From the NCBI GenBank assembly GCA_001275005.1, contig JWZX01002000.1, forward strand, positions 1 to 22,961: 22,961 nucleotides of DNA, in the 5' to 3' direction. Positions 294 to 20,734 of this stretch are shown one piece after another (the stretch's first letter is position 1; each line of letters begins with the position of its first letter). The notes beneath the pieces are model-generated. The model was not told the origin of the DNA. It searched no databases and saw only the letters and a program-made list of their open reading frames with translations. Origin of the DNA: Chrysochromulina tobinii. Taxonomy: Eukaryota > Haptophyta > Prymnesiales > Chrysochromulinaceae. Position numbers and translations under genes: made by a program.

Positions 294-3229
294 TCATGCT
301 TGGACGATGAACGTCGCGTCATCGTCGTTGACGCCTGCCGCACCGCGGGCGAAGACGAGATGATGTTCTCCTGGGTACAGCACCTTCTCGCCATTCGCGT
401 TGACGATCATGAGATCCTTCTCGCTCAGCTCAAATTGGTGGGACGCGCGCGCGCCCGGGACGACGCTCAGCCGCTGGAAGTCGATCAGTGCCCGTCTCGG
501 CGCTGGATGGTCGAGCTGAGCGCGGATGGCGTCGCCGACGGAGTGGTAGAGCATCAGTACCTCGTCCCCGGAGATTGAGCCCTGGTTCGTCACGTTGCAT
601 GCGTAGCTGTAGTTGGCGGCGCCGGCAGGCGTGCCGTAGCGCCGCGCCGCGCTGGCCTGGCACGTCAGATGGAACTGCGTGTACGAGAGCCCAAAGCCAA
701 ACGGGTAGAGAGGCATGCCCGTGTAGTACCGGTAAGTGCGCCCCACGCCCGATGACATGTCGAAGTCCGTCATCTCCTTTTTCGAGATGAAGGCATGCTC
801 GTACATGGTCACCGGCAGCTTGCCCCACCGATTGGCGCCGCCAAACAGCGTCTCGCCGAGCGCCGCAGCCCCGATTTGGTTCGGGTTGAAGGCCTCGACG
901 ATCGCGTACGGCGCAGGCTCAGCTCGACTCACGAGAACGTCGATGGCGAGCGCCCCGCCATTCGTGAGCACGAGGACGGTCGGCTTGCCGAGGGCGAGCA
1001 CCTGTGGGGAGAGAGGGCGCCGTGGTGAGCACTTGCATGCTGGGCCGAGGGCAAGCACATCTCAATGCAAAGGGCCATCAAGTTCAATCAAGTGCAATCA
1101 AGTGCAATCAAGTGCAAACAAAGGCAAACCCAGGGCAACGAGCACCTGTAATGCAAAGGGAAATCAAGGGCAATCAAAGGGCAATCTAGGGTAACCCAGG
1201 GCAATGAGCACCTGTAATGCAAAGGACTCCTGCAGTCCCGGAAGTGACGTGTCCACCCGATCAATTCCTTCATGCTCAATCGACTTATCAATCCCGAGGG
1301 CGAGCACCACAACCTCCGCCTCCGCCGCGAGCTTAAGGGCGAGATTGATGCCGCTCGTGTCGGCCGAGTCGACATCGACGCCCTTGGCTGTGGTCGTCCT
1401 GCCCCCCACATTCTGGGCCGAGACCGCCTCAGCGATCGACACGATGCAGTCGAAGCAGTCGGTACCGTGGCACTTGTCGTCGGTCCAGCAGATCTCGTCG
1501 CCATAGTAGTCACTCACGAGGCCCTGCGTGGTGGAGGCTTGCAATAAGCGAGGTCATCAGAGGCCATCAGTGGTCATCAGTAGCACTCACCTGCTTGGCG
1601 GAGCCTTGCGGGCCAACGACCGCGATCCGGCTGCCGGCGCGAAGCGGTAACATCTTGGCGTCGTTCTTGAGGAGCACAAGGCCCTGCAGGGCCGCCTCGT
1701 ATTGCACCTGTCGATGCTCTGTCGAGTTGATGGTCGTCTCATCAAGTTGAGTCCACGGGCTGCTCGTCGGCGGGTCGAACGCGCTGTGGTGAGCACTTGC
1801 ATGCAAGGCAGATCATCAGTGGCAATCAACGTGCCTGCTCGTCGGCGGGTCGAAACGGCCGAGCGTGAAGAGCTGACGCTGGGTGCGACGCACCTGATGG
1901 GGGAGGCACTCAGACTGATGAGGGAGGCAATCAGACTGATGAAGGAGGCAATCAGACTGATGAGGGAGGCACTCAGACAGGTGAGTGTGGACGCCCGACC
2001 ATCAGTAGCCATCAGTAGCAATGAGCACGCACCGCGGCGGTGATGGCCGCTTCGGTCGTAAGTCCCTTTTGGACCGCACTCATGAGGTGATTGGGGAAGA
2101 GGTCGGAGCCCATCTCGATGTCAGTGCCGTTGTTGAGTGCCCACGCAGCCGCGTGCTCCGGGGACGGGGCATTCACCGGAGGGCCCCGGAGGTTGGACAC
2201 CGCGCCGCAATCGGTGGTGATGATGGCGTCACGCTGCCATTTGCCCTTGAGCAGCGTGTTGAGCACGTAGTCGTTGGCGCAGCTCGGCACTCCGTTGACC
2301 GCATTGTAAGAGCACATGGCACCCGAGGCGCCCGACGAGAGGAAGGCTAGCTCATATTGCGCCAGATACGTCTCGTGCAGGTCGTGCAGGCTGATATTGT
2401 AGCTGTCGTGCCCACGGTTGGTCTCGACAGAGTAGGCGGTAAAGTGCTTGAGATAGGCGAGCATCTTCGGATGGCCTTGCGCGTCCTTCTCCTGCATGCC
2501 ACTCACCATCTCAGCCGCGTACGTCCCCGAGAGGAGCGGATCCTCCCCTGATGACGAGGACGAACAATCGCAATTGGTCGCAATCAGTCGCGATCAGTCC
2601 CAATCAGTCGCAATGAGAGGGTCATCACGCTCGTCCTCACCGGGGAGCTCGGAAGAACGGCCGAACCGCGGGTCACGAGCGATGTTGATGTTCGGCCCGA
2701 ATCCAGTAGGGGCGATGAGCGAGGCATGTTGCTGATCTCCGATATTGCGTTGCCAGTTCATATTGTGAAAGGCTCGCATCTCCGAGCCGAGCACGCCACC
2801 CTTGGCACGCCAAGACGTGCGGTTGAAGGAGGCCCCCATGTTCATCGGCCCAGGGAAGGTGGTGGCACACACGCCTGGCTTGAAGCAGGCAGAGTTGACA
2901 GCAGTATTAGTCTCTGTGAGCCACATCCATTGCGGTACACCCAGTCTCGGTACTCCCGTCGTGTGGTCGGCGCACTCATTTCCAAGGGTGCCATTCGGGC
3001 CGATCATGGCAACCTTTTCGGCGAGGGTCAGCCTCCCGACGAGGTCGTCCACCCGCTGATCGATGCTCAATGCCGTGTTACAGAAGGGCAAGGCGAGCGA
3101 TTCGGAGGTCGTGCATGCCCAGTAGGAGGGCAACGGCGGGAGCGACGCGACGGCAGCGACTGTGAGCATCATAGAGTTCATCATAGCGTGTCGGGTGTTC
3201 CGAAGTTTTGCGATCGAGGTTTGATTCAT
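294..3229 (-). CDS. Glycoside hydrolase family 3 beta-xylosidase/beta-glucosidase, six exons
   Basis: Inferred exons (minus strand): 3229-2641, 2547-2033, 1893-1835, 1759-1591, 1523-1212 and 1001-294, giving 783 residues with frame kept at every junction. The N-terminus has a hydrophobic stretch after MMNSMMLTVAAVA that could be a signal peptide or anchor, so export or vacuolar targeting is likely. PFCNTALSIDQRVDDLVGRL followed by LAEKVAMI matches the start of the GH3 N-terminal barrel, closest in style to plant beta-xylosidases. RDPRFGRSSELPGEDPLLSG spans the first junction. The catalytic nucleophile is probably Asp ~309 in IITTDCGAV. The GH3 C-terminal domain follows (LVLLKNDAKMLPL, GRTYRYYTGMPLYPFGFGLS), then a fibronectin-III-like domain (GDEVLMLYHSVGD). 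The usual role is release of terminal xylose or glucose from glycans; the exact substrate cannot be told. The divergent neighbour at 3428 may share its promoter. All five introns are repeat-like and are listed separately. The family call is firm; the start codon and the third intron's GC donor are inferred. Confidence 0.9.
1002..1211 (-). other. GH3 intron 5, compound introner of two units, 210 bp
   Basis: There are three copies of an exon-start sequence GTGCTC(G/A)..., beginning at 1211, 1145 and 1001. The first two each follow CTTTGCATTACAG and the last follows CTCTCCCCACAG. The intron therefore looks like two stacked units: 1146-1211 of the TTGATTGCCCTT type, and 1002-1145, a 10-nt repeat array joined to a type A core and end. 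Splicing the whole gives FALQVLALGKPTVLVLTNGG. Phase 0. Confidence 0.8.
1524..1590 (-). other. GH3 intron 4, 67 bp
   Basis: The donor is GTGAGT and the acceptor CACGCAG. The interior has TGATGACCACTGATGGCC-like words shared with intron 4 of the C2 gene. The join gives VVGPQGSAKQGLVSDYYGDE, whose spacing matches GH3 relatives. An acceptor 14 nt upstream would shift frame. Phase 0. Confidence 0.75.
1760..1834 (-). other. GH3 intron 3, type A, GC-AG, bounded by a 20-bp duplication
   Basis: An exact 20-bp copy of the upstream exon end (TTCGACCCGCCGACGAGCAG, 1835-1854) recurs at the 3' end of the intron (1760-1779). Between the copies lies the type A core GCATGCAAGTGCTCACCACA. The reading FDPPTSSPWTQLDE requires the intron to start GCACGT and end AGCAG, so a GC donor is inferred. 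Phase 2. Confidence 0.75.
1894..2032 (-). other. GH3 intron 2, type B with four 21-bp repeats, 139 bp
   Basis: The intron begins GTGCGT and the next exon also begins GTGCGT, so a 6-bp direct repeat brackets it. The 3' part (1894-1977) is four tandem 21-bp units, each ending CATCAG on the coding strand, so four potential acceptors lie in series. Splicing gives ITAAVRRTQRQLFTLGRFDP, a normal GH3 segment. Phase 0. Confidence 0.85.
2548..2640 (-). other. GH3 intron 1, introner-like type B, 93 bp
   Basis: The intron starts GTGAGG and ends CGTCATCAG. Splicing rebuilds the GH3 motif ELPGEDPLLSGTY, which fixes both ends. The interior is a degenerate tandem array of a 10-nt word, GACTGATTGC-like, repeated about four times. 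Each copy holds CTGAT, a fit to the branch-site consensus CTRAY. Phase 1. Confidence 0.85.
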
Positions 3230-3427
3230 ACATCCAAATCTACGGGTATATTACATGTATGTAAGTCCTTGGTCCCGGTGATCCGAGGGATGGTGGAAAC
3301 AGATCCCAATTTAGCCGGGGATCAGAAAGCAATCACTAACTTCCTTGCAACTTTGCTCGATTTTTCAGTAATTCCGGAAATATCCGGATAGGACGACAGG
3401 TTTCCGCGTGGTCTTTGTGCGTCCACT
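3230..3427. promoter_or_regulatory. Divergent intergenic region between the GH3 gene and the C2 gene
   Basis: Only 198 bp separate the two start codons, so the segment must hold both 5' UTRs and promoters. It is visibly more AT-rich than its surroundings (for example TATTACATGTATGTAAG near 3248). No specific element can be assigned with confidence. Confidence 0.4.
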
Positions 3428-6400
3428 ATGACGACCTCCGGCACCCGCTCACAGCCCATGAAGACAGTCTATTCGGCCCGCAACTCCATCTTCCGGGCGC
3501 TCTCGCCGCGCCGTTCGCGTTCACCCTCGCCAGGCGCCAGCAAGAGCGCTCCTCCGACCCCGCGTGGGCAGAGCGGAGTCTCACAAACTTCTGGCGGCGG
3601 CGGAAGCAGCAAGTCAAAGCCAATGCCAGCTGCTTCGCCCGCGGCCACGCCCAATGAGGAGTCCAATGAGGTGATCACGTGCTTGGGCGCGATCCCAGTT
3701 GGCGGCTCCTGTAGCAGCGTGACTCTGTTGAAGACAAGCGGAGTCTTCGACAGTGTGCGGGAGAGCGCAGCAGCAGCAGCAGCCAGCATTCAGGGACCGA
3801 GGGCGATCGCCGCGATGGCGAAGCGCTCGTTGCTGACCAAGATGCAGAAGCTCGTCGCGAAGAAGCTCGAATCCACCTACGGCCAGATGAAGCTAACCTC
3901 GATCACTCCCGACCGACGCATGCCGCACCTCTTGCGGGTCACGATTCACGAGGTTGCGGACACAGTTTGGGAGGATGTTCAAGACGAGGCTATGCGCATG
4001 TTTGAGAAGATGATGAGGAGCGAAACCGAGGAGATCGATGATGATGCCGAAGATAGACCCCACAGGAACCCCGTCTCGTCTCTGCCCTCGCCACCCTCGT
4101 CGCCACCCGAGGACAGCTCCGATGCCGCCTCGATGCAAACTCCGAAGCCAAAGGTTCAATTGCCACCCGGGCGGCCGCCTCAGCCACGGCCACCGCTGGC
4201 TCTTCCTGGACACGTGAGCATGCATGTGCTCACTACAGCGCCTCAACCACGGCCGGCACCGCTGCCTCTTCCTCCGCCGGAGGTGCAAGAGGTGCCGGTG
4301 TTACCCGAAGTAGAAATGGCCCTGCATGCAAAGGGTAGAAATGGCCTTGCATGCATGCAAGACATGCCCGAAGTCGAAACGGCCAGCCAGGCTCCAGACG
4401 GACGTCCGATGGTCCGTCAGGGGTCCGTCAGGGAGGAAGTGCAGAATTTCGCGGCCGGCACCATGCCCCTGGCCAGCGTGGCCGGCGCCATGCACAGGTC
4501 GTTGGGGCATGATAGAGGCACGATGCGCATCGTTCTCGTGAGCGCGCGTGGCCTCAAGGCAGCCGACTCCAACGGGCTCTCCGATCCCTACTGTATGCTG
4601 AGCATGGGACGGCACAGGAAGACGTCGACGACAATCAAGAAGACGCTCAACCCGAAATGGAACGAGGAGTTCCAATTCAAGGGTGAGATTGCGAAGCTCG
4701 GCTCGAAGCTGCTCCTCCGGATGTATGACTACGACCTCGTCGGCTTTGACGATGCGCTCGGAAACGCCGAGGTGATCGCCACTGATCGCCACTGATCGAC
4801 CGTCATCGACACTGATCGACACTGATGACCTATGCTTGTGTCGCATGCAGGTGGACTTGCAGCCGTGCTAAGACACATGCATGTGCTCACCACGGCGTCC
4901 CACTCTCGTCTCCCCATAGGTGGACTTGCAGCAATGCTACAACAAGCCGTACGAGACGCACGTGTTCGATGCGATCGCGCTCACGGGTGCGCGCATCAAG
5001 GGCGAGGACACAGCGACTGGCACGGTGCAGCTCAAGGCGCTCTGGATGCCTCTGGAGCAGATCCGCGAAGGGCTCGATCTCGAGCTTGGCGAGGACGTCG
5101 AGGGGCATGCAGATGATATCGCCTTTCATCAGGTCACGCAAGCGGCCAGTCGGGCGGATTGCATGCTCACCGCATGGCTCATCGCATGCTGATTGCCTCC
5201 CTCATCAGGTCACGCGAGAGGCCAATTGGGGCACAATGCGCGTGGCGCTGCGCCGGGCGACGGGACTGAAAGCCGCAGACTCGAATGGATTCTCGGATCC
5301 GTACGTGTACCTCTCCATCCCCGCTCTCGAGGGGAGCAAGCCCCAGCGCTCCAAGACGATCAAGAAGAGCCTCGACCCCGTGTGGAATGCCGAGTTCGAG
5401 TTCACGGGACCCAAGCGCCTGATGGGACGGCTCCTGATCGACGTCTGGGACGAAGATTGGGGAGGCTCGCACGACAAGCTCGGCTCCGCCTCCCTCGATC
5501 TCGCGGTGCTCGGGGTGCTCGACGCGGCGCTCGACGATGGCCCCATGCTCATATGACGGATTGCATGCTCATTGCATGGCTCATCGCGTGCTGATTGCTT
5601 CCCTCATCAGGTGCTCGAAGACGGCTCGCCTCTGATCGAGCACACGGTCGCGCTCAACACGCAGGGCGAGGTTCACCTGGGCTTCGACTGGAATTCGTAT
5701 GCAGAGGACAGGGAGAAGATCGCCTCGGCCGAGGAGCTGCTGGATCGCTCCGTGCCCCTCTTCATGCAACGGTTTGATGCGGACGAGGAGGCGGAGCCGC
5801 TCGAGTATAAGGTGAAACCTACTGATGACCTCTGATGGCCTCTGATGACGGAGCCGCTCTACTGATGACCACTGATGGCCTCTGATGACGGAGCCGCTCG
5901 AGGATAAGGCGAGGCAGCTGCTGCCACTGGACGCGCATGCATGCATGTGCTCACAGCAGCGCCCTCTCCCTCCTCTCCCACAGGCGAGGCAGCTGCTGCC
6001 GTGGACCCACTGGACGCGCTCACTCACCCAGGTGATTGCACTTGATTGCACGTGATTGCACTTGATTGCACGTGATGGCACTTGATTGCACGTGATGGCA
6101 CTTGATTGCACGTGATTGCACTTGATTGGACTTGATTGGACTTGATTGCACTTGATTGCACTTGATTGGGCGTGCTCACCACCCCCAGAGCATGCCGCTT
6201 ACGATCAAGGGGCGCTACTCGCTCGCATGCATGTGCTCACCACGGCGCCCCACCCTCGTCTCCCCACAGGTGACGATGCGGCTCACGATCAAAGCGGGGT
6301 ACGACTTGCTCGCCGCCGACCGAGGCGGCACCTCGGACCCGTATGTCATCTGGCATCTGGGCGCCGAATCGGGCAAGGTACGTTGGTTGCCACCTGAGGA

Positions 6401-9400
6401 CCTGCCATGCATGCAAGTGCTCATCACAGCGCGCTCGACTCCCCTGGCATCTGGGCGCCGAATCGGTCAAGACAAAGGCAGCGCGCAAGACGCTCAACCC
6501 CGTGTGGGATGAGACGGTGGAGGTTTGGGGCGAGGCGCGCGACGTTTCCTCGAAGCCGATCCGCCTCGAGTGAGGGCATGCATGTGCTCACCACGGCGCC
6601 TCCCCCTCCTCTCCCCACAGGTGCGCGACTTTTCCTCGAAGCCGATCCGCCTCGAGTGAGGGCATGCATGTGCTCACCACGGCGCCTCGCCCTCCTCTCC
6701 CCACAGGCGCGCGACGTTTCTTCAAAGCCGATCCGCCTTGAGTGCTTCGATCACGACCTGCTGTCCTCGGACGACTCGCTCGGCACTACCGTGCTACCTC
6801 CCGAAGCCATCCGAGCGGTGCTCATCCAGACGCTCAAGGGCGAGGAGCCTGACGAGGGGCGTCTGTTCTGGCTGCCGCTCAATGGCAAAGGGTACGTTGA
6901 GCGCCACTGACGACCTGCCTTGCATGCGAGCGCCAGTGCTCACCACGGCGCCTTGCCCCCTCAGGTACCTCGGCATCGTGCTCAAGGTCATCGTACGTGG
7001 CCAGCCCACACTGGGCCAGCTGGTACGCCGGCTGGCTCAGCCGCTTGGGGCTCTGATTGCGTGCCTCATCAGCTTGGGGCTCTGATTGCGTGCCTCATCA
7101 GGTACGCCGGCTGGCTCAGCCGCTCCTCCAAACGAGTCTGGTGTTACTTCGCTACCCCGAGTCGCTGCGTCGGGCGAACTCCATGGCGACGCTGCGCGTG
7201 CAGCTCCTCCGTGGCGAAAGGTTGCTCGCCGCCGATGCGCCCTCCCTCAGCCACCTGGCCGGCACGTGCGACCCGTACGTGATCTTGAAGCTGGGGGCTC
7301 CTGATGGGATCCGTCATCAGCCACTCGGACGGCGCTGGGCAGTTATCCGGAAGCTCGCGGACCTCGAGGCGAGTGGCCACGAGCTCGAATGCGGGCATGC
7401 ATGTGCTCACCACGGCGCCCCCCCCCTCCCCCTCCTCTCCCCACAGGCGAGTGGCCACGAGCTCGTGCACCCTGCGCTCAGCGCGGCGCTCAAGGCCCGT
7501 TACAACCTGACGCGCTGGTGCTTCGGCGGCGAGGACGAAATCTCGATCTCCGCCACCGAGCTCCACGCCCTCAACAAGCAGCTGCCCCATCCACCTCTGA
7601 TCACCGCAGAGTCCTATCTCCGGGCGGGCGAGCTCACATTCCGACCGGTGCCGCCCCTGATGGCCTTTGATGGCCTCTGATGGCCTTTGATGGCCTCTGA
7701 TGGCCTCGGATGGCCTCGGATGGCCTCTGATTGCCACTGATTTCATCTGATTGCCATTGATTGCATCGGATGGCCTCTGATTGCATCGGATGGCCTCTGA
7801 TTGCTTCGGATTGCCACGGATTGTCTCAGATTGCCTCGGATTGTCTCAGATTGTGCCTCTCATCAGGTGCCGCCCCTCGAGCCCATGTCGTTGATGACCT
7901 CCTTAATGACCTCCCTAATGACCTCCCTAATGACCTCCCTGATGACCTCCCTCATCAGGTGCCGCCCCTCGAGGCCACGTCGAAGACTATTAGGAAGACC
8001 CTCAACCCAGTGTGGGAGGAGACCTTTTGGTTCCGCGCGTACGTCCACGACTTTACGAGCGCGCCGCTCGAGTGCGAGGTACTCGACAAGGACGAAGGGC
8101 CGGTCGCCCACCTGCCTAATTTGGGACGTCCGTTGCTCTCCGAGAGCTCGAGTAAGGACGACCCAATCGGGTTCGCCGAAGTGTCGCAGCGCCAGATGTA
8201 TGCCCTTTTCGCCGACGCGATGCCGGACGCGATACCGGCCGCACAGGACGGGGGAAGTGCGTCGTCGGTGGGCGCCGACACGGAGAGTGGCAGGGACTTT
8301 GCGCTGCAACTGACAACGAGGGGCATGCTGCACCTGAACGTGGCCGTCGTCGAGGTGACCCCGCCGAGCTACACGATGCTGCTCCGGCGGCTGCTGCTGC
8401 TGCCGCTCGTGCGCCTGTATGCGGCGATGGCGCAGCTTTCTCACCTCGCCCTCGTCATGCAGCGAGAGTACACGACGGTGACGATCAAGGTGACGCTGCA
8501 CCGGGCGACCAATCTGAAGGCGGCGGATGTGAGCTTTCTCGGGCGCCGGAGCTCTTCCGACCCGTATGTCAGCATCGAGCTCGCGGGCCAGGTGCTGCAG
8601 TCGAGTCAGAAGACGGCGGACCTGAACCCCATTTGGGATGGGGAGGAGTTTGTGTTCGTCAAGACGCTAGGTGAGCTCGAGAAGGACGAGCTCGATTGTC
8701 TCTGATTGCCACTCTGATTGACGCTGATTGCCTCCCTCATCAGGCGAGCTCGAGAAGGACGAGGATGGGATCTTGAACATCGAGGTGTTCGACTACGACC
8801 AGTTCGGCGACGACGACCTGCTCGGCATGAACGGTCTCTACATCGAGGAGCACCTGCTCGCCAACGCAGGCAGGGGGCCCCATCGGTACCTTCTACCGCT
8901 CAATACCCAGGGCTCCATCGAGCTGAGCGTCGACGTCTCGAGCAAGGTGGAGCATCCAATGAGCATCCTATGATTGCCTATGAGTACCCACGAGAGCCCA
9001 TGGAGGGCCCATGATTGAAGATCGGATTGCATCCCTCATCATGAGAGCCCATCGAGTGCCCATGATTGATTATCGGATTACATCCCTCATCAGGCGGAGC
9101 CCCATTTCTTCGAGATGCTCCTCCTCCTGCTGAAGCCGTCCTTGTACTACGTGCGCGCCAGCGTCCTCTACTACCGATTCCCGTACGACCTGCCCATCTG
9201 GTCCAAGATTCGTGACCCCTGGTACTACATCTTCTACTTCCTCGGAGCCAACCCGGACATCTTCGTGCGCGGCGGCTTCTTCACCATCTACCTCCTCTGC
9301 ATCGCATCTGACCTCGAGGAGTTCCAGGTCATGCGATTCATCCTCGGCATGAAGGGCATGCAGTTCGTCTCGGGCGTGATCAAGTCGGCCATCCTGTGCT

Positions 9401-10966
9401 ACGAGTTCTGGGAGTGCTCGGTCGGCTCGACCGAGCCGCTCGGCTGCCAGGTATGATGATTGCCACTGATGACCTGCCTTACATGCACGTGCTCACCACA
9501 GCGCTATCGACCCGCTCGACTGCTAGGCCAAGGGCCCCGGCGTGGGCGGCGCGTCCGTGCGCAAGATGGTCGCCATCATGCTCTGGATGCAGGCCCTCCT
9601 ATGGATCGCCTTCCTGCTGCTCCCGTTCACAGGCAAGCTCCATTTCACAGGCTCCCTTTCACAGGCTCCCTTTCACAGGCTCCCTTTCACAGGCTCCCTT
9701 TCACAGGCTCCCTTTCACAGGCTCCCTTTCACAGGCTCCTTTGGATCGCCTTTCTGCTGCTCCCGTTCACAGGCAAGCTCAACCCCCGCTCGGGCAAGAT
9801 CAACTATACACGGAGCCGGCGCAAGTGGGCGGACGCGTGGCAGTTTGCCGAGGAGCTCGAGCTGCAGCGGTACAAGACAAAGTTACGGCGCGCCGCGCGG
9901 CGTGCGACGCGGCACGACAAGGTGCAATACCAGAGGCTCAAGGTCGAGGAGCATGCGGAGCTCGCCGTGGAGAAACTCGGGACAGGATACGTCCAACAGA
10001 TGGACGAGAAGGCGAGGGGTGCGCACGAGAAGAAGCTGCTCGAGTTGCGCCGCAGGTGCGCCGAGCGATGCGATCAGACGAAGCATGCAACGACCTTGAC
10101 GCATGCAAGTGCTCACCACGGCGCCGGGTCCCCGCAGGTGCGCCGAGCGATACGATCAGACAACCTTGGTCGGGTGGCTACAGGCGCGGCTCGCCCTCTG
10201 CCACAAGTACTTTGATGCGGTCACGTTCCCGATGCGGTGCGCGGAGAAGCAAAACCGTCTCGTCGTACTGCTCCATTGGGACACGTTCGCTTTTGCTCTG
10301 TGCGTGCTCATCTTTCTCATCCTGTCAGTCTGGTCGTACTGGGCACGCGAGGAGATTGCGGCAGAGGCCGACGGGCGCATCCTCAAGGGCCAGCCGCTCT
10401 TGCACACGCTCCTCGTCATTGGCGACATGATGTCAATCTTCAGCGACTCATTTTGGGATGACTGGCACACCCAGATCACGTTCCAGATCGTAAAGGTCAT
10501 CTTCTCGCTCTCGGCCGTCCCCTTCTTCTTGTTCACGATTGGGCCCCTCTCCAAGCTCTTCTCGCACACCGACGCGACCGCGTACATGCCCGATGGGCGC
10601 CTCACCGTTCCCGACCCGAACGGCCTCTCGGCCTACCTTCGCTGGATCCGCGAGGATGTGCTCGGGCCTCACTCGGCGCACGCGGAGGAGCTCGAGACGA
10701 GGTTCTCCCAAAAGGAGGTCCTCAACCTGCGCCGCGCCGTCAAGAATGCGGAGCGTACCCTCAAAGAGGCGTGGAGGAAGCCTGCCTCGGCGATCCGAGT
10801 GACGCGCAACTCGAAGCTTGCTCTGGACAAGATGCTGCTCAAGCTCGTCTCCAAGGAGCGCGCGTCCAAGGCGCTTTACACTCACTGCTTCCCCGACCGC
10901 GTGCTGCTTGACGAGTACGAGAAGAACAAGATACTCAGGATCCAGGAGCAGAAGAACAAGGAGTGA
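3428..10966 (+). CDS. Multiple C2-domain membrane protein (MCTP / extended-synaptotagmin-like), 17 exons
   Basis: Inferred exons: 3428-4771, 4920-5132, 5209-5514, 5611-5811, 5984-6031, 6270-6377, 6472-6534, 6707-6891, 6965-7022, 7102-7368, 7447-7647, 7959-8670, 8744-8946, 9094-9450, 9527-9632, 9773-10055 and 10138-10966. They total 1827 codons plus stop. Residues 1-360 are Ser/Pro-rich with a charged helical patch near 125-200. C2 domains begin near residues 365, 528, 705, 869 and 1170. Each has the loop-1 pattern AAD...DPY and an acidic loop 3 (DYDLVGFDD, DEDWGGSHD, DHDLLSSDD, DKDEG, DYDQFGDDD), so calcium-dependent phospholipid binding is likely. The fourth C2 carries a ~85-residue insert. 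The last ~525 residues hold membrane segments (MLWMQALLWIAFLLLPF, FALCVLIFLILSVWSYW, SLSAVPFFLFTIGPLS) and end in a basic coiled-coil-like tail. Inferred role: tethering or trafficking at ER or plasma membrane contacts. Ferlin-like alternatives are less likely. An optional in-frame intron at 4214-4282 is possible. Confidence 0.85.
4195..4282 (+). repeat. Exonised or decayed type A introner relic inside exon 1
   Basis: GTGAGCATGCATGTGCTCAC, then TACAG (from 4214), is a recognisable type A core that stays open in the coding frame. A Pro-rich coding sequence CCTCAGCCACGGCCACCGCT before it is repeated, diverged, after it (4239 onward). That is the same duplication-core-duplication layout as the true introns. 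Splicing 4214-4282 (69 nt, GT-AG) would keep frame, so this could be an optional intron; 4214-4238 would not. Confidence 0.5.
4304..4379 (+). repeat. Short duplications around TGCATGCA in exon 1
   Basis: CCCGAAGTAGAAATGGCC (about 4304) recurs as CCCGAAGTCGAAACGGCC (about 4366). Between them GTAGAAATGGCC(T)TGCATGCA is repeated again. The stretch is translated in frame (LPEVEMALHAKG...DMPEVETAS). Removal between the obvious GT and AG sites would shift the frame, so it is probably a coding relic, not an intron. Confidence 0.4.
4772..4919 (+). other. C2-gene intron 1, compound type B + type A, 148 bp
   Basis: Two units in tandem. 4772-4850 starts GTGATCGCCACTGATCGCC, is built of 10-nt GATCGACACT words and ends GCATGCAG. 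4851-4919 starts with a copy of the next exon's first bases (GTGGACTTGCAGC), runs through a type A core and ends CCCATAG. The trapped copy reads VDLQPC then stop, so it cannot be a retained exon. Splicing gives LGNAEVDLQQCYNKPYE. Phase 0. Confidence 0.85.
5133..5208 (+). other. C2-gene intron 2, type B, 76 bp
   Basis: The intron start GTCACGCAAGCGGCCAGT is repeated, with a few changes, as the start of the next exon (GTCACGCGAGAGGCCAAT). The last 54 nt (5155-5208) match the last 54 nt of intron 3 at all but four positions. The donor GTCACG is weak, so the 5' edge is less certain than the 3' edge. Phase 0. Confidence 0.75.
5515..5610 (+). other. C2-gene intron 3, type B, 96 bp
   Basis: The intron begins GTGCTCGACG and the next exon begins GTGCTCGAAG. 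The 3' 54 nt are nearly identical to those of intron 2. A second GTGCTC at 5506 is an alternative donor, also in frame. Phase 0. Confidence 0.75.
5812..5983 (+). other. C2-gene intron 4, compound, 172 bp
   Basis: The exon end GGAGCCGCTCGA(G) recurs twice inside the intron, each time after a TGATGACC/TGATGGCC block. The start of the next exon (GCGAGGCAGCTGCTGCC) is also present inside the intron, just before a type A core that ends TCTCCCACAG. At least three duplication events are stacked. Splicing joins PLEYK to ARQLLPWTHW. Phase 0. Confidence 0.75.
6032..6269 (+). other. C2-gene intron 5, 10-nt minisatellite plus type A, 238 bp
   Basis: The first ~135 nt are a 10-nt tandem array of CTTGATTGCA / CGTGATTGCA words (about 13 copies). 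A possible acceptor CACCACCCCCAG follows, then a ~38-bp diverged copy of the next exon's start (from ~6192), then a type A core and CTCCCCACAG. The next exon opens the third C2 domain (VTMRLTIKAGYDLLAAD). Phase 0. Confidence 0.8.
6378..6471 (+). other. C2-gene intron 6, type A, bounded by a 27-bp duplication
   Basis: The exon end TGGCATCTGGGCGCCGAATC, then GGGCAAG, is copied at the 3' end of the intron (ending GGTCAAG at 6471). The donor is GTACGTTGG. Splicing gives HLGAESGKTKAARKTLNPVW. An upstream acceptor CATCACAG (6429) would add 14 in-frame residues, RARLPWHLGAESVK, duplicating a beta strand. Phase 0. Confidence 0.75.
6535..6706 (+). other. C2-gene intron 7, two tandem 86-bp type A units
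   Basis: Units 6535-6620 and 6621-6706 are each exactly 86 bp and nearly identical. Each is a ~39-bp copy of the following exon start (GCGCGCGACGTTTCCTCGAA...) plus a type A core ending CTCCCCACAG. The real exon 8 starts with a third copy at 6707. In frame, unit 1 reads into a TGA, so it must be removed. Domain continuity (WGEARDVSSKPIRLECFDHD) implies a GC donor at 6535. Phase 0. Confidence 0.75.
6892..6964 (+). other. C2-gene intron 8, type A, 73 bp
   Basis: The donor is GTACGTTGAG, the same donor word as intron 6. A diverged core TGCTCACCACGGCGCC follows and the end is GCCCCCTCAG. The next exon begins GTACCTCGGC, echoing the donor. Splicing gives LNGKGYLGIVLKV. Phase 2. Confidence 0.8.
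7023..7101 (+). other. C2-gene intron 9, type B with an internally doubled 3' end
   Basis: The intron starts GTACGCCGGCTGGCTCAGCC and the next exon starts with the same bases (23 bp identical). CTTGGGGCTCTGATTGCGTG, then CCTCATCAG, occurs twice in direct tandem, giving two acceptors 29 nt apart. Splicing gives TLGQLVRRLAQPLLQTS. Phase 0. Confidence 0.85.
7369..7446 (+). other. C2-gene intron 10, type A, GC-AG, 19-bp duplication
   Basis: GCGAGTGGCCACGAGCTCG is found at both the intron start and the next exon start. GCGAGT is a good GC-type donor. The type A core is perfect, followed by a long C-rich tract and CTCCCCACAG. Splicing gives KLADLEASGHELVHPAL. Reading through without splicing stays open, so intron retention would only insert residues. 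Phase 0. Confidence 0.7.
7648..7958 (+). other. C2-gene intron 11, two minisatellite units, 311 bp
   Basis: GTGCCGCCCCT occurs at the intron start (7648), inside the intron (7867) and at the next exon start (7959), each later copy preceded by CATCAG. Unit 1 is a ~200-bp array of TGATGGCCTC / GGATTGTCTC 10-nt words. Unit 2 ends in five 12-nt repeats of the form AATGACCTCCCT. Splicing gives LTFRPVPPLEATSKTIRKTL. Phase 0. Confidence 0.85.
8671..8743 (+). other. C2-gene intron 12, type B, 18-bp duplication
   Basis: The intron begins GTGAGCTCGAGAAGGACGAG and the next exon begins GCGAGCTCGAGAAGGACGAG, differing only at position 2. CTGATTGCC words follow and it ends CCTCCCTCATCAG. Splicing gives FVKTLGELEKDEDGILNIEV, an intact C2 strand. 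Phase 1. Confidence 0.9.
8947..9093 (+). other. C2-gene intron 13, type B, internally doubled, 147 bp
   Basis: The donor is GTGGAGCATCC; the next exon begins GCGGAGCCCCA. A ~60-bp segment (GAGAGCCCATGGAG ... CATCCCTCATCA) is repeated once in tandem. Splicing joins DVSSK to AEPHFFEMLL. Phase 0. Confidence 0.85.
9451..9526 (+). other. C2-gene intron 14, type A-like, 76 bp
   Basis: The exon end CCGCTCGGCTGCCAG has a diverged copy CCGCTCGACTGCTAG at the intron end. The donor is GTATGATGATTGCC; the middle has ACATGCACGTGCTCACCACA. The acceptor is CTAG, unlike the usual CAG. Phase 0. Confidence 0.8.
9633..9772 (+). other. C2-gene intron 15, 14-bp acceptor array inside a 42-bp duplication
   Basis: A ~42-bp coding sequence (TGGATCGCCTTCCTGCTGCT...ACAGGCAAGCTC) occurs twice, 140 bp apart. 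Between the copies are six perfect 14-bp repeats GCTCCCTTTCACAG (9651-9734). The frame before and after is consistent only if 140 nt are removed, with GCAAGC as donor and TTCACAG as acceptor. The type A and B cores are absent. Phase 1. Confidence 0.75.
10056..10137 (+). other. C2-gene intron 16, type A, ~26-bp duplication
   Basis: GTGCGCCGAGCGATGCGATC starts the intron, and nearly the same bases start the next exon. The core GCATGCAAGTGCTCACCACG precedes the acceptor CCCGCAG. Splicing gives LRRRCAERYDQTTLVGWL. Phase 2. Confidence 0.85.
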
Positions 10967-11235: not shown

Positions 11236-12033
11236 TTAACGAAATAGGTGCAATAAACCGCGTATACTATGTGTATACTGTGTATCGGGCGTGGGCGGCG
11301 AGATGGGCATCTCTAGTGACGACGAGAGCAACGCGAAGAGGTCGAGCCCGTGGCCGTGGATGTACGAGAGCGCGATAGATTCGACGAAGCTGCCCGCGTT
11401 CGCGAAGAGCGTCTGTAGGCCGACGGGGATCTTCCAGAAGCACAGGATGTCCATCGGGACCCAGAGCATCGAACCACCCACGAGCGTCGACACGAACGTG
11501 CCGCGCAGCTCGCGCAGGATCATGTCCAACGAGTGGCCCTGAGCTGTGCCACAGATCGTCCAGTAGGCCAATAATGACGTGGGATGCCAGATCGCAATTT
11601 CGAGCCCGAGCTTTGCGCCAACGAAAGGCAGCCCACCAGGTGTGAGGCGCAACGCCCCGCGCACCACATAGTCCAGAAAGTTGAACCACAGGTATGTGCC
11701 CGCACCGCCAACAAGGGTGCCGTGCACCACTGTGCCCGCAGTACGGTAGCAGTCGATATGAGTGCCAAGGATGACAACCTTGCGAGAATCGGCGTCAAAC
11801 TCATCCTTTGACGCGTGAGAGCCTCCCGTACGCTCATGCGACTCTGCTCCTTCGAGGAACTGTGCCACCAAATCGCCAGAAGACCAGAGGACGCTTCCCG
11901 TGAGGGCGGAGGTCCGGAGAGGATTAGAGGCCATCATTCTTCCGTAGAGGGTGCTGGTGTCCACAGGGCCCCCGGAGGCAAATCGGCGCAGAGGGCGTAG
12001 AGCCGCCGCTGTGAGGCGCCGAGACGTGAGCAT
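11236..12033 (-). CDS. Mpv17/PMP22-family membrane protein, mitochondrial-type leader
   Basis: Single exon, 265 residues from the ATG at 12033. The frame is open further upstream, but MLTSRRLTAAALRPLRRF is a typical Arg-rich, acid-free mitochondrial presequence and is shared with the methyltransferase gene to the right. The body has the Mpv17 layout: an N-terminal LYGRMMASNPLRTSALTGSV segment, TYLWFNFLDYVVRGAL, hydrophobic helices and the C-terminal signature MLWVPMDILCFWKIPVGLQT ending with SFVESIALSYIHG. Family members sit in the inner mitochondrial or peroxisomal membrane and are linked to membrane permeability and metabolite balance; the exact function is unsettled. There is an unusually polar insert (SHERTGGSHASKDEFDADS) after QFLEGAE and a ~25-residue C-terminal tail. 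No introner is present. Confidence 0.85.
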   Translation of the reverse strand: MLTSRRLTAAALRPLRRFASGGPVDTSTLYGRMMASNPLRTSALTGSVLWSSGDLVAQFLEGAESHERTGGSHASKDEFDADSRKVVILGTHIDCYRTAGTVVHGTLVGGAGTYLWFNFLDYVVRGALRLTPGGLPFVGAKLGLEIAIWHPTSLLAYWTICGTAQGHSLDMILRELRGTFVSTLVGGSMLWVPMDILCFWKIPVGLQTLFANAGSFVESIALSYIHGHGLDLFALLSSSLEMPISPPTPDTQYTHSIRGLLHLFR

Positions 12034-12110
12034 GATGGGGAAAAAACCAAGCTCGTCCCTCTGAGAGTGTGAGGCGACGCGCCGTGCGTGCGTTGCAGGG
12101 TAATTTCGCG
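11882..12110 (-). repeat. Leader-and-promoter duplication, copy 1 (Mpv17 gene)
   Basis: This segment, covering the first ~45 codons and the DNA upstream of the start, is a diverged direct copy of ~13534-13800. Shared landmarks include GAGGATTAGAGGCCAT, GGCGTAGAGCCGCCGCTGTG and GTGCG(T)(G/T)CGTTGCAGG on the plus strand. Confidence 0.85.
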
Positions 12111-12771
12111 AAGTCCGCAAGCGTTTCACATAAATTTGGACATGGAGAAGTGGAAAGCAACTTATACACACGCCGCGAGAGAGATCATTAATGTTTGAGC
12201 CAAGGCCGTCGCGCACACAAACACAATGCACTATGTGCGCACGGTTTCGATTGAAGGTATGTACAGTAATGGATTGAACTAGCTTGAAGGTCGGGGCTTA
12301 TTCCACGGCTTGGGCAAGTCCAAAACCTTACAGAACGCACGTGGCAGAAATCGGCCGCTCAATCGCCTCAGTCCGAGCGGGGCGGGCACGAACCGTTCTT
12401 CGCATCTTTTTGGTACACCAGCCATCCATGAACCGATCACCAACGTCAATCTCCGCGCCTCCGCCACCTCTTTGGTCCTTGGTGGCAGTTCAAAAGCGGT
12501 GGCGTAGGCAACAGTACTGGTCCAGAGCTGTCGCCCAAGCCAACAAGCCGCCGCCAGTGCCGACGTCGTCGCCGCGCCGCCGCTACTCAGCCGCCTCCGC
12601 CTCGACCCGCCTCCCGCCACATTGCCGCCAGCCCGCCACCAGAGAGCGTCACACACAACGATTGACGCCCCATGCCCTCTCCATGCCGTCGTTCATGGGC
12701 TCGGCTCCCAGCAAACCCGGCACATCCGATCAGTCCTAGCGACGCCTCGGGGGCTTGAAATTTAGTGAATT
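12034..12771. other. Intergenic region, no supported gene
   Basis: 738 bp between the Mpv17 start and the methyltransferase stop. The first ~80 bp belong to the duplicated leader/promoter segment. Overlapping open frames on both strands near 12280-12740 are Pro/Arg/Ser-rich with no recognisable domain. A small lineage-specific gene cannot be excluded, but I see nothing that supports one. Confidence 0.4.
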
Positions 12772-13692
12772 TCAGGGATCCGGGAGAGTCACCAGGCTGT
12801 GCGGAGCCTGCCATATCTCCAGCGTGTTGAACTTGCCACGGAGTCTGTTGAAGACGCCGTTCTGCGCGACGGGCGTCGAGCGCTGCAGCACGAGGCCGCT
12901 CGCCTCGAGCACGCTCGCCTTTAGCTCACGGTACGAGTCGGCCGTGCAGTACACGATCACCGAGCCCGGATGCTTGGCCACCTGTGCAGCGAGACCCGCG
13001 TACAGGCGGTCCATCTCGGCCTCGGGCAAGTTGGCCATCCAGAGCGGCTCGTAGATGTAAAAGGCCGCGCGCCCGCCGAAGAGACGCTTGGTAGCGCACA
13101 CGCGGTCCGCGAAGCCAAACATGTCGCCGCACTCCACCTTGCATTTGGGATCGTCCTTGACAGCTGCTACCGCCTCCGCTGCAGTGTTCGGATCAAGCTC
13201 CACACCCACGCATCGCTCAAACATCGACTTGCCATCGATGGTCGCCTCGGACATTGGACGTAGCATGGCGCCCTGTCCGCAGCCCAGGTCCACAAATGTG
13301 AAGTCTGTCGCACTGCACATAGGCCCGATCACCTGTGCCAGCTCGCTGCGGATGATCGGGATGACCATCGGCATTGTCGGCTTGCAGGCCGGCCGCCCTC
13401 TGAGTGTTGGCATTAAGAGGTTCTTGAACCACACGTAGGCGCTGTAGAGCTCCTCTGATGTGGTCATTTTGATGGTTTCCGAATACACATCGGCTTCCGG
13501 CATCGCGTTCGGCGATGCAGCACATGAGAACGACGACCAGAGGACGGAGGTCTGGAAAGGATTAGAGGCCATAAACCTTCCGTAAAGGGTGCAGCTGGTG
13601 TTCGCAGGGCCGCCGGAGGCAAAGCGGCGTAAAGGGCGTAGAGGGCGTAGAGCCGCCGCTGTGAGGCGCCATGACGACAAGAGGCAGTGCAT
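12772..13692 (-). CDS. Class I SAM-dependent methyltransferase with mitochondrial-type leader
   Basis: Single exon, 306 residues. The N-terminus (LTAAALRPLRPLRRFASGGP) is a near copy of the Mpv17 gene's leader, with LRP duplicated, and the likeness continues through LYGRFMASNPFQTSVLWSS. After residue ~55 the proteins are unrelated. The catalytic fold shows motif I FVDLGCGQGAMLRP, an acidic motif II CVGVELD, and AFYIYEPLWMANLP in the motif IV region. It probably transfers a methyl group from S-adenosylmethionine to a small molecule or protein; the substrate is unknown. Mitochondrial location is inferred from the leader only. Residues ~60-135 (YSAYVWFKNLLMPTLRG) are a helical cap I do not recognise. 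No intron is seen. Confidence 0.8.
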   Translation of the reverse strand: MHCLLSSWRLTAAALRPLRPLRRFASGGPANTSCTLYGRFMASNPFQTSVLWSSFSCAASPNAMPEADVYSETIKMTTSEELYSAYVWFKNLLMPTLRGRPACKPTMPMVIPIIRSELAQVIGPMCSATDFTFVDLGCGQGAMLRPMSEATIDGKSMFERCVGVELDPNTAAEAVAAVKDDPKCKVECGDMFGFADRVCATKRLFGGRAAFYIYEPLWMANLPEAEMDRLYAGLAAQVAKHPGSVIVYCTADSYRELKASVLEASGLVLQRSTPVAQNGVFNRLRGKFNTLEIWQAPHSLVTLPDP

Positions 13693-13800
13693 GAAGGAAA
13701 AACGTCTGTCCCACTGCAGGCCTCGACGAGCGACGCGCTCGTTCGTGTCGTGCGTTCGTTGCAGGCTGTTGCAGTCAAGTTCGCAAGATGACGCAGTAAA
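13534..13800 (-). repeat. Leader-and-promoter duplication, copy 2 (methyltransferase gene)
   Basis: Direct-orientation partner of ~11882-12110. It differs by small gaps (for example loss of a Thr-rich stretch and gain of one 9-bp GGGCGTAGA unit) and point changes, including sequence upstream of the ATG. Confidence 0.85.
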
Positions 13801-14482
13801 AAGTGGCCTACAACTAAGTGTGAAATAGTATCAGCAGAGCCATCAGAGGACCACCCGGGGTGGCATATGGTGGAGCCCAAAGGGCATTAAGTTACACCCC
13901 CGAATCTATTCCTCTGTTGAAGGCCCACGAATGCCTCAACTTGCCGCCTCAACACCTTCATGTAATCCTGCTGCCATCCCAATGCTACGCCAATTCACAG
14001 CCCCCGGACCGCCGTACCGGTACTGTACCCTTCCATTCACACGTTCGCGCGAACCGTCCGCGCCTACGTTGGACAGACTCTGATAAGACTCTGACTCTCT
14101 CAACGGACCACCACTAGCCACAGCGGCCCATACTCATTGCACCAGGACTCTCTCCAGACCACCCGATAGCCACAGCGGTCCGCACTTAGTTACACCGATA
14201 CTCCCTATCTCAACGGACCGGACCACCACTCTAGCCTGACAGCAGCCCCATACTCATTGCACCAGTACTCTCTCCAGGCCGCCTATAGCCTCAGCGGTCT
14301 GCGCTCACTCCACCGAGACTCTCTCTCTCTCAACGGACCACCACTAGCCACAGCGGCCCATACTGATTGCACCAGGACTCTCTCCAGACCGCCTAGCCCC
14401 AGCGGTCTGCGCTCAGGTCTCGGCGGTGAGGAAGATAGAGCAGCCATCCGCCTCCTTGTCTGCATGCCGTGTCGGCGGCAGC
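13801..14482. other. Intergenic region left of the receptor-like gene
   Basis: Lies between the upstream region of the methyltransferase gene and the stop of the large minus-strand gene. 13801-14098 shows no supported gene; 14099-14425 is the tandem repeat listed separately. It should include the 3' UTR of the large gene and the distal promoter of the methyltransferase. Confidence 0.4.
14099..14425. repeat. Three tandem copies of a ~115-bp unit
   Basis: Copies start at about 14099, 14209 and 14329 with CTCAACGGACC. Each runs through CAGC(G)GCCCATACTCATTGC, CTCTCCAGRCC, and CAGCGGTCYGCRCT. Lengths vary from ~110 to ~120 bp through small indels. The array is not coding in any consistent frame and lies just beyond the stop of the large minus-strand gene. 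Confidence 0.85.
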
Positions 14483-17400
14483 CTACAGGTTCTCGGTCTC
14501 GTGGCCACCCGTGCTGGTCATGATCGTGCTGGCGTCTCCGCCTGCGGACTCCACCTGCGGAGCCTCTGCGGTGACGGAGACGACGTGGAGCTCGCGGGCG
14601 AGGAAGGCGAGCCGCGAGGTGGAGTCGTGCTTCTCGCTGTGCTGCTGCCACTTGGCACGTATCGCCGACTTCGCCTCAACTCGTCCCCTTGCGCCAAAGA
14701 GCCTATCTGCGATTCGAACGACGTGGCGCCGGAAGGCGAGGATCCACCGGCCAGCTGGGCCGACCTTGCCCTCACCATCGGGCTCGGTGAAGCGATGCAG
14801 GTACTTGAGCAGCGACATTTCGAAGAGGACGGTGAGGATGACGGGTACGGCGAGGAGCGCAGGGAGCAAGGCCGACATTATCGGATCGTTGGGGTAGGCG
14901 TTGGTCACCAAGGAGCTGACCAACGAGAAGAAGATGACGACCTGCGCTACCTGTGCAAGGATGTCGTCCTCATTTTCTACGTAGGGAGCGCAGACGCAGT
15001 AGGCGCCATACGACAGGAAGCAGATGATGAGCCCAAATATGAGCTGGGCCGGCGACCCCGCCGGGAAGAAGATGGGCAGCCCGATGAGCAGGATCTTGCG
15101 CACGCATTCAAAGATCTCGAACCAGTACGTGCGGAGCTCGTAGCCAGCGGTTAGCTTGCGCTGCGTCGTCGGCAGCTCGTCACGTAGCTTTGCGAGGGCT
15201 TTACCGGTTGCCTCGTGCGCTTCCATTGCCTTGCGCACCATCGCATCCGTCTCTTCAGGGGTGGCAGCGGCCTCCGCCTTGAGCTTCGCGAGCGCAAAGT
15301 CCGTCTCCCGGGTGAGCTCGATGTGGCGCATCTCCTGGAGCTGGTGGCGCTCAAGGTGGAACATGAGCCCATAGAAGAAGGGCACGCCGATGGGGTAGAG
15401 GATGAGCATGACGACGGCGTACACGGTGAAGCCTTGGTAGAGTTCCCCCTCGCGGTCAATGGAGCGGTCGGCGCGCATCAGGTCCACGTACACCTCCCCA
15501 GGCTGGTCATAGGTCTCGCGCATGAAGAACATGAAGGTCATGGAAGAGCAGCTCGGGTAGACGAGGAAGATGATGAAGAACCACAGATCCGAGCATGCAT
15601 CGGCGAGGTACGCGCCGAAACCCCTCTGGGCGCTCTCCGCACCGCCAAAGCGTGCGCGCAGGACTTTGCTCATGACGTAGAGCAGCAGCACAAGCACCAG
15701 CGGCGTTGCGGTCTTCAGAACGAAGTTGAAAAAGAAATTGTCAAGCAACGGAAGAACACAGCCAAAGGGCAGCAAGTTGACTTGAATGTTGATGTTCTTG
15801 AGGCCCTCGAGGGTGGCGGTGTAGAAGGCAGGGTACGTGATGTCAAAGATCACGTCCAGTTGCGAGACCACCTGGCTCAGCGAGATCAAGATCCGGATCT
15901 TGACTCCAAGTGAATCCACGACTGACGCGAACGTAGCGCCAGCGGCCACCAACCTCGCCGAAGCTGCATCCGAAAGCCCTAACGTTTCCTTCACCAGTTG
16001 ATTGCCTTCTGTCTTCGTGGCCGCCCCAGCTGCCTCTTCAATCATGCCTTGAACCCCGCCTTCCATCTTTGTCACAGAAAAGAGCACGTCAACGACTTTA
16101 TCCCCTCTGCGCTTGCAAATGGCCATGGCCAGCACGAAAGCGAGAAGAACGACCACGCCGCCGATGATGTAGAAGGTGATCGTCTCCATGGGATTGCCCG
16201 CGTCGGAGCACGATTGGCAAGGCTCTCCACGGCCGCCAAAGTGCAGCGGATCCTGCACACACAGATCGCACAGCGGCCCAGAGTGACCGTCCGCGCACGA
16301 CACGTCGCCAGCGAGCCCACCGCCGAGACACGCCTCCTCCAAGTCGCACATTCGAACGTACAGCGCCCTCGGATTTTGCCGCCAGTGGCCCGGGGTGACG
16401 GGGATGGAGTCGAGCGTGACGCCCGGCGCTGTGCAGTTGGTCATCTCCCCTGGTCCTGAATGAATCCTCGCGCAGGGCTTACACTCAAAGGCATGTGCTG
16501 CGATGTGGCTGCTGTCGTTGGTCGCCCAAATCACCTCGGCGCTTGTGAGGTTGGCGAACGTGCCCACCTTGCACACGCATTGGGAGACCGAGTCGGCGCC
16601 TTCCTGCACCGTGGTCGTCCCCGCCACAGGGCATTCGAGGCACTTTTGGGGGCCAAGAGGGTTGCGGTCGGCGTTCTCGCCCATCCAGTCCTTGTATGTG
16701 CCAGTCTTGCACGCGTCGCAGCGCACGCCGCCGACGAGCTCGCGCCCGGGCGCACAGACGCATAGGGCATTGCCTGCTGCATCGAGCTGCTGCACGAAGC
16801 TCTCTTGGCACAGGCATTGGCTGACGTTCGTGGCTGCGGTGCCATTGGTGGTCGAGAACTCGGGGCAGCGCAAACAGGCTGTTTGGCTGGCGGCATTTGT
16901 GGTCGGGTTGTAAAACCCCTTCTCACACGCCACCTCAAGCCCGGCAGTGCACCAGAAGCCCCTGGGGCACACGCGTTGTCGAATTACGGTCACGGTCTGC
17001 TGGACCACGGTCGCGGTAGGTGCCATGAGGTTGGCCACAGACACACCAAGAGCGGCGCCGAGGACCGCGGGATCGAGGTTGTTGAGAGTAAAGGATGGGG
17101 TCACAACAGGTGGACCGCTCGTGGTGGCGTTGCTGGGGGCGTTGCTGTTGGTGGGATTGGTGGTCACCGTCCGAACGATGGTGTACGTGACGATGGTGGA
17201 GCTCGTCTGAAGCCGACGCCCAGCCGCTGGTGGAGACGGCGACGCCGCCGAAAAGTCGATCTGAAGGTCCTGCCAAGGAACGCCGAGCTGTGCGGCGATC
17301 GTCTGGCGATACTGGATCTCAAGGTCCGTGTTGTTCAAGAAGGACGAGAGTGGCGCGTTGAGCGAGAGAGAGCCCGTGACAGTCTCGACTGTCTGCGTCT

Positions 17401-20491: not shown

Positions 20492-20734
20492 CTCTCTTGG
20501 CTCCCCTGGGGCAATCCCTGGGGCCAACTCCCTGGCCTGCCCTGGACAGGGACGCTGGAACAGGCTGGAAGCAGACAAGTTTCCGAAAACGCCCTTCACT
20601 GTGAAAAAAAGACCGGGGGAGCCGGACGGGACACACACGTGTGAGAACTCAGACAAATCGACTGATCGACACCTTCACACCTCATCGTCGCTTCACGCGA
20701 TCGTCAACAGCCTCGAAAGCGCCAACTCTCGACA
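20492..20734. promoter_or_regulatory. Divergent promoter region of the receptor-like and CS-domain genes
   Basis: 243 bp between the two inferred start codons. If the upstream ATG at 20656 is used instead, the gap shrinks to 78 bp, which argues for the inner start. No TATA box or other element is clear. Confidence 0.4.

Follow-up and report, generated by a model that had tools for sequence, protein, structure and literature searches.

Introner-type introns with long and variable duplications of exon-edge sequence in Chrysochromulina tobinii

The window analyzed here is the whole of a 22,961-nucleotide stretch from the haptophyte Chrysochromulina tobinii (contig JWZX01002000.1, our contig C938, of assembly GCA_001275005.1, which comprises 53.2 Mb in 2253 contigs), and it holds two intron-rich genes in which many introns lie between direct copies of exon-edge sequence. 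A gene for a GH3 glycoside hydrolase occupies positions 294 to 3229 on the reverse strand; its 6 exons form an open frame after five introns are removed, with the start placed at the first of several possible ATGs. On the forward strand, positions 3428 to 10966 encode a multi-C2-domain protein of 1827 amino acids (aa) in 17 exons, again a single open frame once 16 introns are removed. The same intron count was given in the original prediction, an earlier reading of this DNA from its letters alone; the intron numbering used below is our own. A 403-aa piece of the C2 product matches the Pfam C2 family (E 3.3e-41), and a related 537-aa protein (54% identity over 331 aligned positions) aligns without gaps at the junctions of C2 introns 3 to 9. 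We infer the splicing of these introns from the open frames and from homology, and the frames of both genes together with the relative's alignment point to insertions in coding exons whose reading frame would be restored by splicing.

The original prediction held that nearly every intron is flanked by such a duplication. When the two ends of each intron were compared with a junction-anchored score (match, +1; mismatch, -2), 10 of the 16 C2 introns reached a score of 10, compared with none of 240 mismatched junction pairs. The corresponding counts were 8/16 versus 0/240 at a score of at least 17 and 11/16 versus 7/240 at a score of at least 8. In the GH3 gene, where the scores stand without a control set, introns 3, 4 and 5 scored 20, 11 and 10, while introns 1 and 2 scored 5 and 7. 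The duplications are thus real and exceed chance, but with 3/5 GH3 introns and 13/21 introns of the two genes together reaching a score of 10 at their ends, "nearly every" overstates their frequency.

The two commonest forms of these introns share a 24-base core, GCATGCAAGTGCTCACCACGGCGC, which has 461 exact occurrences in the assembly; its reversed sequence has none. In the first layout, A1, an exon copy is followed by the core, a pyrimidine tract and an AG, after which the exon resumes. In the second, A2, the exon-end AG is followed by a near-identical donor piece, GTACGTTGATTGCCACTGATGACCTGCCTT, the same core, a short variable tail and a second copy of the exon end that carries the acceptor AG. 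The core includes a CTCAC motif, which we take to be a typical branch-point form, and it may therefore hold the branch point. Starting from 169 cores, we obtained 99 isolated sites, 69 of which scored at least 14; these comprised 40 A1 sites, 11 A2 sites and 18 that fit neither layout, and all copy lengths given here cover the 51 classed sites. The left A1 copies, 15 to 44 bp long (n = 40), lie entirely within introns with a median length of 79.5 bp (standard deviation, 7.3) and begin with GT (36/40) or GC (4/40), with AG preceding them in 19/40 cases. The A2 copies measure 14 to 37 bp (n = 11), and the A2 element was matched at 54 or more places with 89 to 100% identity. In A1 the 3' end is constant and the 5' end ragged, with 0 to 24 bases separating the copy from the core; in A2 the polarity is reversed, the 5' end being constant and the 3' end ragged. 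As judged from these layouts, one predicted splice site is imported by the element and the other is host sequence made usable by the duplication. The earlier suggestion that copied host sequence supplies the splice sites therefore holds for one site, while the other comes from the dispersed element. Splice-compatible core pairs were found in sense orientation in 40/51 cases and in antisense in 16, a loose test that we do not use as proof. Likewise, we do not rely on the correlation between copy and insert length (-0.61, n = 24), which may partly be a measuring error arising from misread copy ends.

A further class, type B, has inserts built from repeated 10- or 12-bp units in which CTGAT/CTAAT is abundant (window positions 7648 to 7958 and 6032 to 6200, and several other loci), with flanks similar to those of type A. 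These arrays look as if several branch-point-like motifs had been strung together. Among type B repeat pairs, 30/35 are spaced 60 to 139 bp apart, and the median copy length is 29.5 bp.

Within the C2 gene, whose introns are all on the forward strand, the A1 layout is seen in intron 16 (10056-10137; copies 10050-10079 and 10132-10161, 29/30 identical) and intron 10 (7369-7446; copies 7367-7387 and 7445-7465, 21/21), the latter with a GC donor from the exon copy. It occurs in tandem in intron 7 (6535-6706), where the end copies at 6533-6572 and 6705-6744 share 37/40 identity and a third copy, at 6619-6658, sits mid-intron. Intron 1 (4772-4919) is a composite with a nested A1 unit (copies 4849-4870 and 4918-4939, 20/22) and a score of only 5 at its own ends. 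The A2 layout is represented by intron 6 (6378-6471; copies 6350-6377 and 6444-6471, 27/28), by the more diverged intron 14 (9451-9526; copies 9432-9451 and 9508-9527, 17/20) and, on the reverse strand, by GH3 intron 3 (1760-1834; copies 1760-1779 and 1835-1854, 20/20), in which the element brings the 5' splice site and the exon copy gives the AG. These are the three introns that had been described as copying the previous exon's end, and we recovered the same directions. Type B introns are intron 12 (8671-8743; copies 8669-8690 and 8742-8763, 21/22) and intron 11 (7648-7958), which has end copies at 7647-7658 and 7958-7969 (12/12) and a second, nested pair at 7859-7890 and 7951-7982 (30/32).

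Duplications also bound intron 2 (5133-5208; copies 5126-5148 and 5202-5224, 21/23), intron 9 (7023-7101; copies 7022-7045 and 7101-7124, 24/24) and intron 15 (9633-9772; copies 9596-9640 and 9736-9780, 43/45), which is filled with tandem units of 14 bp that are similar to the target. Intron 4 (5812-5983) is a composite of two insertions, with copies at 5792-5812 and 5889-5909 (20/21) and at 5907-5925 and 5982-6000 (19/19), and scores only 3 at its own ends. The end scores of introns 3, 5, 8 and 13 are 9, 7, 5 and 6. Most of the previously reported duplication lengths agree with ours, the exception being the ~38 bp ascribed to intron 5, which was not found at the ends of that intron. In C2 exon 1, positions 4191 to 4273 hold a type-A-like insert with copies 66 bp apart (16/17 identical) that keeps the frame; this insert may encode 22 residues instead of being spliced out. 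Tandem repeats of the whole unit of exon copy plus element were observed at window positions 6533-6744 (86 bp), L014 3237-3420 (80 bp) and L022 1807-2064 (79 bp), implying that repetition of the complete scar is another way in which introns grow.

The excess of flank identity over mismatched flanks extends to two wider samples of the genome. The first consisted of 20 stretches picked for having core hits plus the window (213,444 bp in all), with 98 core sites after one additional hit that lacked flanks was dropped. A flank duplication score of at least 12 was found at 80/98 sites versus 14% of mismatched flank pairs, and a score of at least 25 was found at 41/98 versus 0.6%. Random positions passed these thresholds in 17% and 5.8% of cases, a control that is probably inflated since its stretches are full of such introns. 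In the second sample, 40 core-chosen sites taken mainly in the order of the core matches listed, omitting two contigs already sampled and most tandem neighbors, 28/40 passed a score of 12 versus 2.9% of mismatched flanks and 24/40 passed a score of 16 versus 0.44%. Two of the 40 are repeats caused by contig overlap (L065/L078 and L066/L079 are duplicate sites), and 27/38 pass a score of 12 when they are removed. The contig pairs involved, C65/C498 and C101/C235, were considered as alleles and rejected, because the members of each pair are identical over ~5 kb and thus represent redundant overlaps in the assembly.

A motif-free scan of the 213 kb gave a concordant picture. Disjoint direct-repeat pairs peak at an intron-like spacing of 70 to 89 bp (75 pairs), and beyond 110 bp every 10-bp bin holds at most 8 such pairs; overlapping tandem pairs form a separate peak at 20 to 29 bp. 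Of 198 nonrepetitive disjoint pairs spaced 40 to 400 bp apart, 75 carry an A core, 35 a type B array and 88 neither, according to our own patterns. Thirty-four of these 88 have a spacing of 60 to 99 bp, and many look B-like or like plain tandem repeats.

If the duplications arose at insertion, an empty site should carry one copy. We joined the flanks of 39 sites (21 + 18) and searched for them within the same assembly. The 82-bp intron at L028:4939 is missing from a paralogue on C2193 (97% identical), where the 30-bp stretch occurs once. Three paralogues (88, 83 and 80%) of the L009:7655 site are without its 91-bp intron, and two paralogues (74%) of the A2 site L040 are likewise without the intron; each of these five carries a single copy. 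Empty sites are thus available at three of the 39 sites, and all six intronless paralogues, at 74 to 97% identity, bear out the expectation of one copy, with none seen that contradicts it. The paralogue of L024 carries the same intron, while diverged matches to L055 on C2204 and C2168 cross the junction for ~25 and 10 bases and are probably intronless, although their copies cannot be counted. At the other 34 sites, the search gave no usable paralogue, the matches listed corresponding to the query site, to an identical overlap or to repeat units. A long-query search of the assembly for alleles of L022 returned element matches, a 232-base contig-end overlap and a few other short matches.

Taken together, the one-copy paralogues and the excess over mismatched flanks support the original prediction of intron gain with target duplication, and the phenomenon itself, an introner-type system whose exon-edge duplications are long and variable, is firmly supported. 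Many of these introns probably arose from small mobile intron pieces (introners) that were copied from resident introns, each insertion duplicating ~15 to 45 bp of exon. In the A1 form, the piece would bring the conserved core, the pyrimidine tract and the 3' AG, and the left exon copy would provide the GT or GC donor, so that the entire left copy turns intronic. In the A2 form, the piece would bring the GTACGTTGATTGCC... donor and the same core, and the right exon copy would provide the AG. In both forms, splicing would restore the original coding sequence.

Near-identical introns dispersed in one genome are a feature of introners, and the introns described here resemble published introners (PMC9860276) in being highly similar, dispersed sequences that create new introns (statements on published systems refer here and below to excerpts of the cited sources). 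In that work, the element contributes one splice site and the target duplication contributes its partner; both arrangements are illustrated (Fig. 2B and, for Chrysochromulina, Fig. 2C), and some families lack a target duplication. The duplications there span 3 to 9 bp in previously described families and 4 bp in Fig. 2B and 2C, whereas those reported here span a variable 14 to 44 bp, outside that range, and a single genome combines both orders around a shared core. The greater length lowers the identity with described introner families but not membership of the kind. The 14- to 44-bp lengths also lie outside the 4- to 12-bp range of repeats at Daphnia neo-introns attributed to staggered double-strand breaks (PMC4202315), and the type A inserts, unlike those, are a repeated family. 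Amoebophrya introners (PMC7789003) are likewise repeated introns between direct repeats, but their direct repeats are 3 to 5 nucleotides (nt) long and are accompanied by inverted repeats of 8 to 20 nt and many noncanonical splice sites. A study that reports direct repeats (4 to 30 bp; mean, 11.4) for 213 introns from many classes reads them as insertion scars (PMC11782384); its abstract mentions neither a single mobile family nor empty sites, and the A1 median here is more than twice its mean. No introner family with such long duplications was found in excerpts of the open-licence literature (PMC9860276, PMC4202315, PMC3443670, PMC7789003, PMC12768974, PMC9481584, PMC8379373, PMC4201569 and PMC11782384), although the per-family table of PMC9860276 may hold longer ones.

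The DNA step may proceed by templated break repair or by target-primed retrotransposition. A resident intron would serve as the source of the insert, which would be copied into a broken or nicked target; a stagger or a backward template switch would generate the duplication, and loose joining combined with selection for a spliceable product could account for the variable inner end and the exact outer end. Staggered-break repair, as originally proposed, is a possible DNA step; it would not involve arbitrary filler, since the core of the inserted element occurs at hundreds of places. Two sets of observations bear on the template. First, 20/20 bases of the L059 insert are identical to an exon copy that lies within an L022 intron, on a different contig; of these bases, 17 recur downstream, in what is read as L022 exon, and the two 3' tracts are alike in kind. 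This match points to a resident intron, together with its captured exon, as the template. Second, A2 introns that share a tail but lie on different contigs, in genes unrelated by eye, have similar exon ends (score of at least 7) in 5/9 pairs versus 8/531 other pairs, the nine pairs coming from three clusters (L033/L034/L036, L038/L039 and L030/L043/L048) with one tandem pair counted twice. Such sharing is expected if short homology guides insertion. These clues, few as the cases are, favor copying from resident introns. A more speculative possibility, less likely than not, is that introns of this alga multiply as DNA repair templates: a broken exon would pair by a few bases at the splice junction with a resident intron, copy only its 5' or 3' half and rejoin the exon upstream or downstream of the exit. 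The duplicated exon would then complete the half intron, later rounds would carry captured exon, and short homology to the end of the source intron would steer the choice of target.

Several observations weigh against the introner explanation, including the copying from resident introns. The carry-over of exon-derived sequence amounts to the one L059/L022 case, the other upstream carry-over pairs among the matches listed being mostly tandem neighbors or the core or tract sequence itself. Among the nine shared-tail pairs, the two with L043 show no relation between their exon ends, and the tandem locus L034 accounts for some of the five positives. The precision of the outer A1 end is partly built in, given that the class rule demands an AG near the copy start. 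No duplication is seen at a score of 12 at 12/40 core-chosen sites, and 88/198 nonrepetitive disjoint pairs contain neither insert by our patterns. Although age should predict copy identity, the relation between copy score and core mismatches is not significant (Spearman, -0.12; P = 0.13). Finally, splicing rests on open frames and homology rather than RNA reads, and the empty sites are paralogues in one assembly rather than alleles or strains.

Target-primed reverse transcription of intron RNA by non-LTR-type machinery is a possible but rather doubtful alternative. Its two offset nicks would yield variable duplications with one fixed and one truncated end, as observed for the length variation and for the constant 3' and ragged 5' ends of A1, and it would accommodate the upstream sequence carried over at L059. 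The opposite polarity of A2, however, would call for antisense RNA or another route, such that this mechanism explains A1 well and A2 poorly. Insertion of a DNA transposon, a MITE-like introner with a transposase that cuts at unusually long staggers, is unlikely. The broad spread of copy lengths is unlike that of typical transposases, and neither the duplication length nor the inner ends are fixed; on the other hand, dispersed near-identical copies are what a transposon would leave, and most introner families have been read as consistent with DNA transposition (PMC9860276).

Tandem genomic duplication of AGGT-containing exon pieces, in which both splice sites come from the duplicate and a foreign insert is unneeded (PMC3443670), resembles the present system in that duplicated exon sequence gives a splice site, but as a general explanation it is improbable. 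The A elements recur at hundreds of places, and an A or B insert is present in 67/101 nonrepetitive pairs spaced 60 to 99 bp apart. Simple tandem duplication, also raised in the original prediction, fits few introns. The best case is intron 15, with its 45-bp duplication, GC-AG junctions in both copies and target-like filler, which may qualify as a tandem-duplication intron; arrays of exon-plus-intron units such as that of intron 7, as well as the 88 pairs without an A or B insert, also agree with such a process, whereas the A inserts do not qualify. An assembly artefact or chance or low-complexity similarity is very improbable: although the assembly is fragmented, two contig pairs overlap identically and the type B and array introns are repetitive, the mismatched-flank controls, the position of the pairs on splice junctions, the one-copy paralogues and the open frames all contradict it.

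The origin of new introns is a long-standing question. This family offers hundreds of copies with a readable birth scar, in which the duplicated exon stretch exceeds that of the introners used for comparison several-fold, and a single core used in two mirror-image ways. Prediction of the empty site is possible to the exact base, which makes the mechanism testable across strains or in cultures.

Three exact motifs searched in viral contigs gave 1, 0 and 0 stretches, in a collection that may omit records near the genome of the window. In the viral collection, L029 (positions 4380 to 4554 of the 4.5-kb IMG/VR contig UViG_3300027760_000958) is a contig end with the exact core, a 3' tract and an upstream repeated stretch, and visual inspection suggests a chimeric junction with algal DNA. 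Beside the two intron-riddled genes, positions 11236 to 21664 of the window hold four long uninterrupted open frames, whose products include an Mpv17-like protein, a protein with a weak methyltransferase match below the Pfam cutoff, a 2063-aa FG-GAP/ephrin-receptor-like protein and that of a fourth frame. One single-exon protein of the window is 97% identical to an environmental protein and its nearest named relatives are from haptophytes: Prymnesium sp. (49%), a record with the truncated label "Coc" (44%), Diacronema lutheri (37%) and Emiliania huxleyi (33%).

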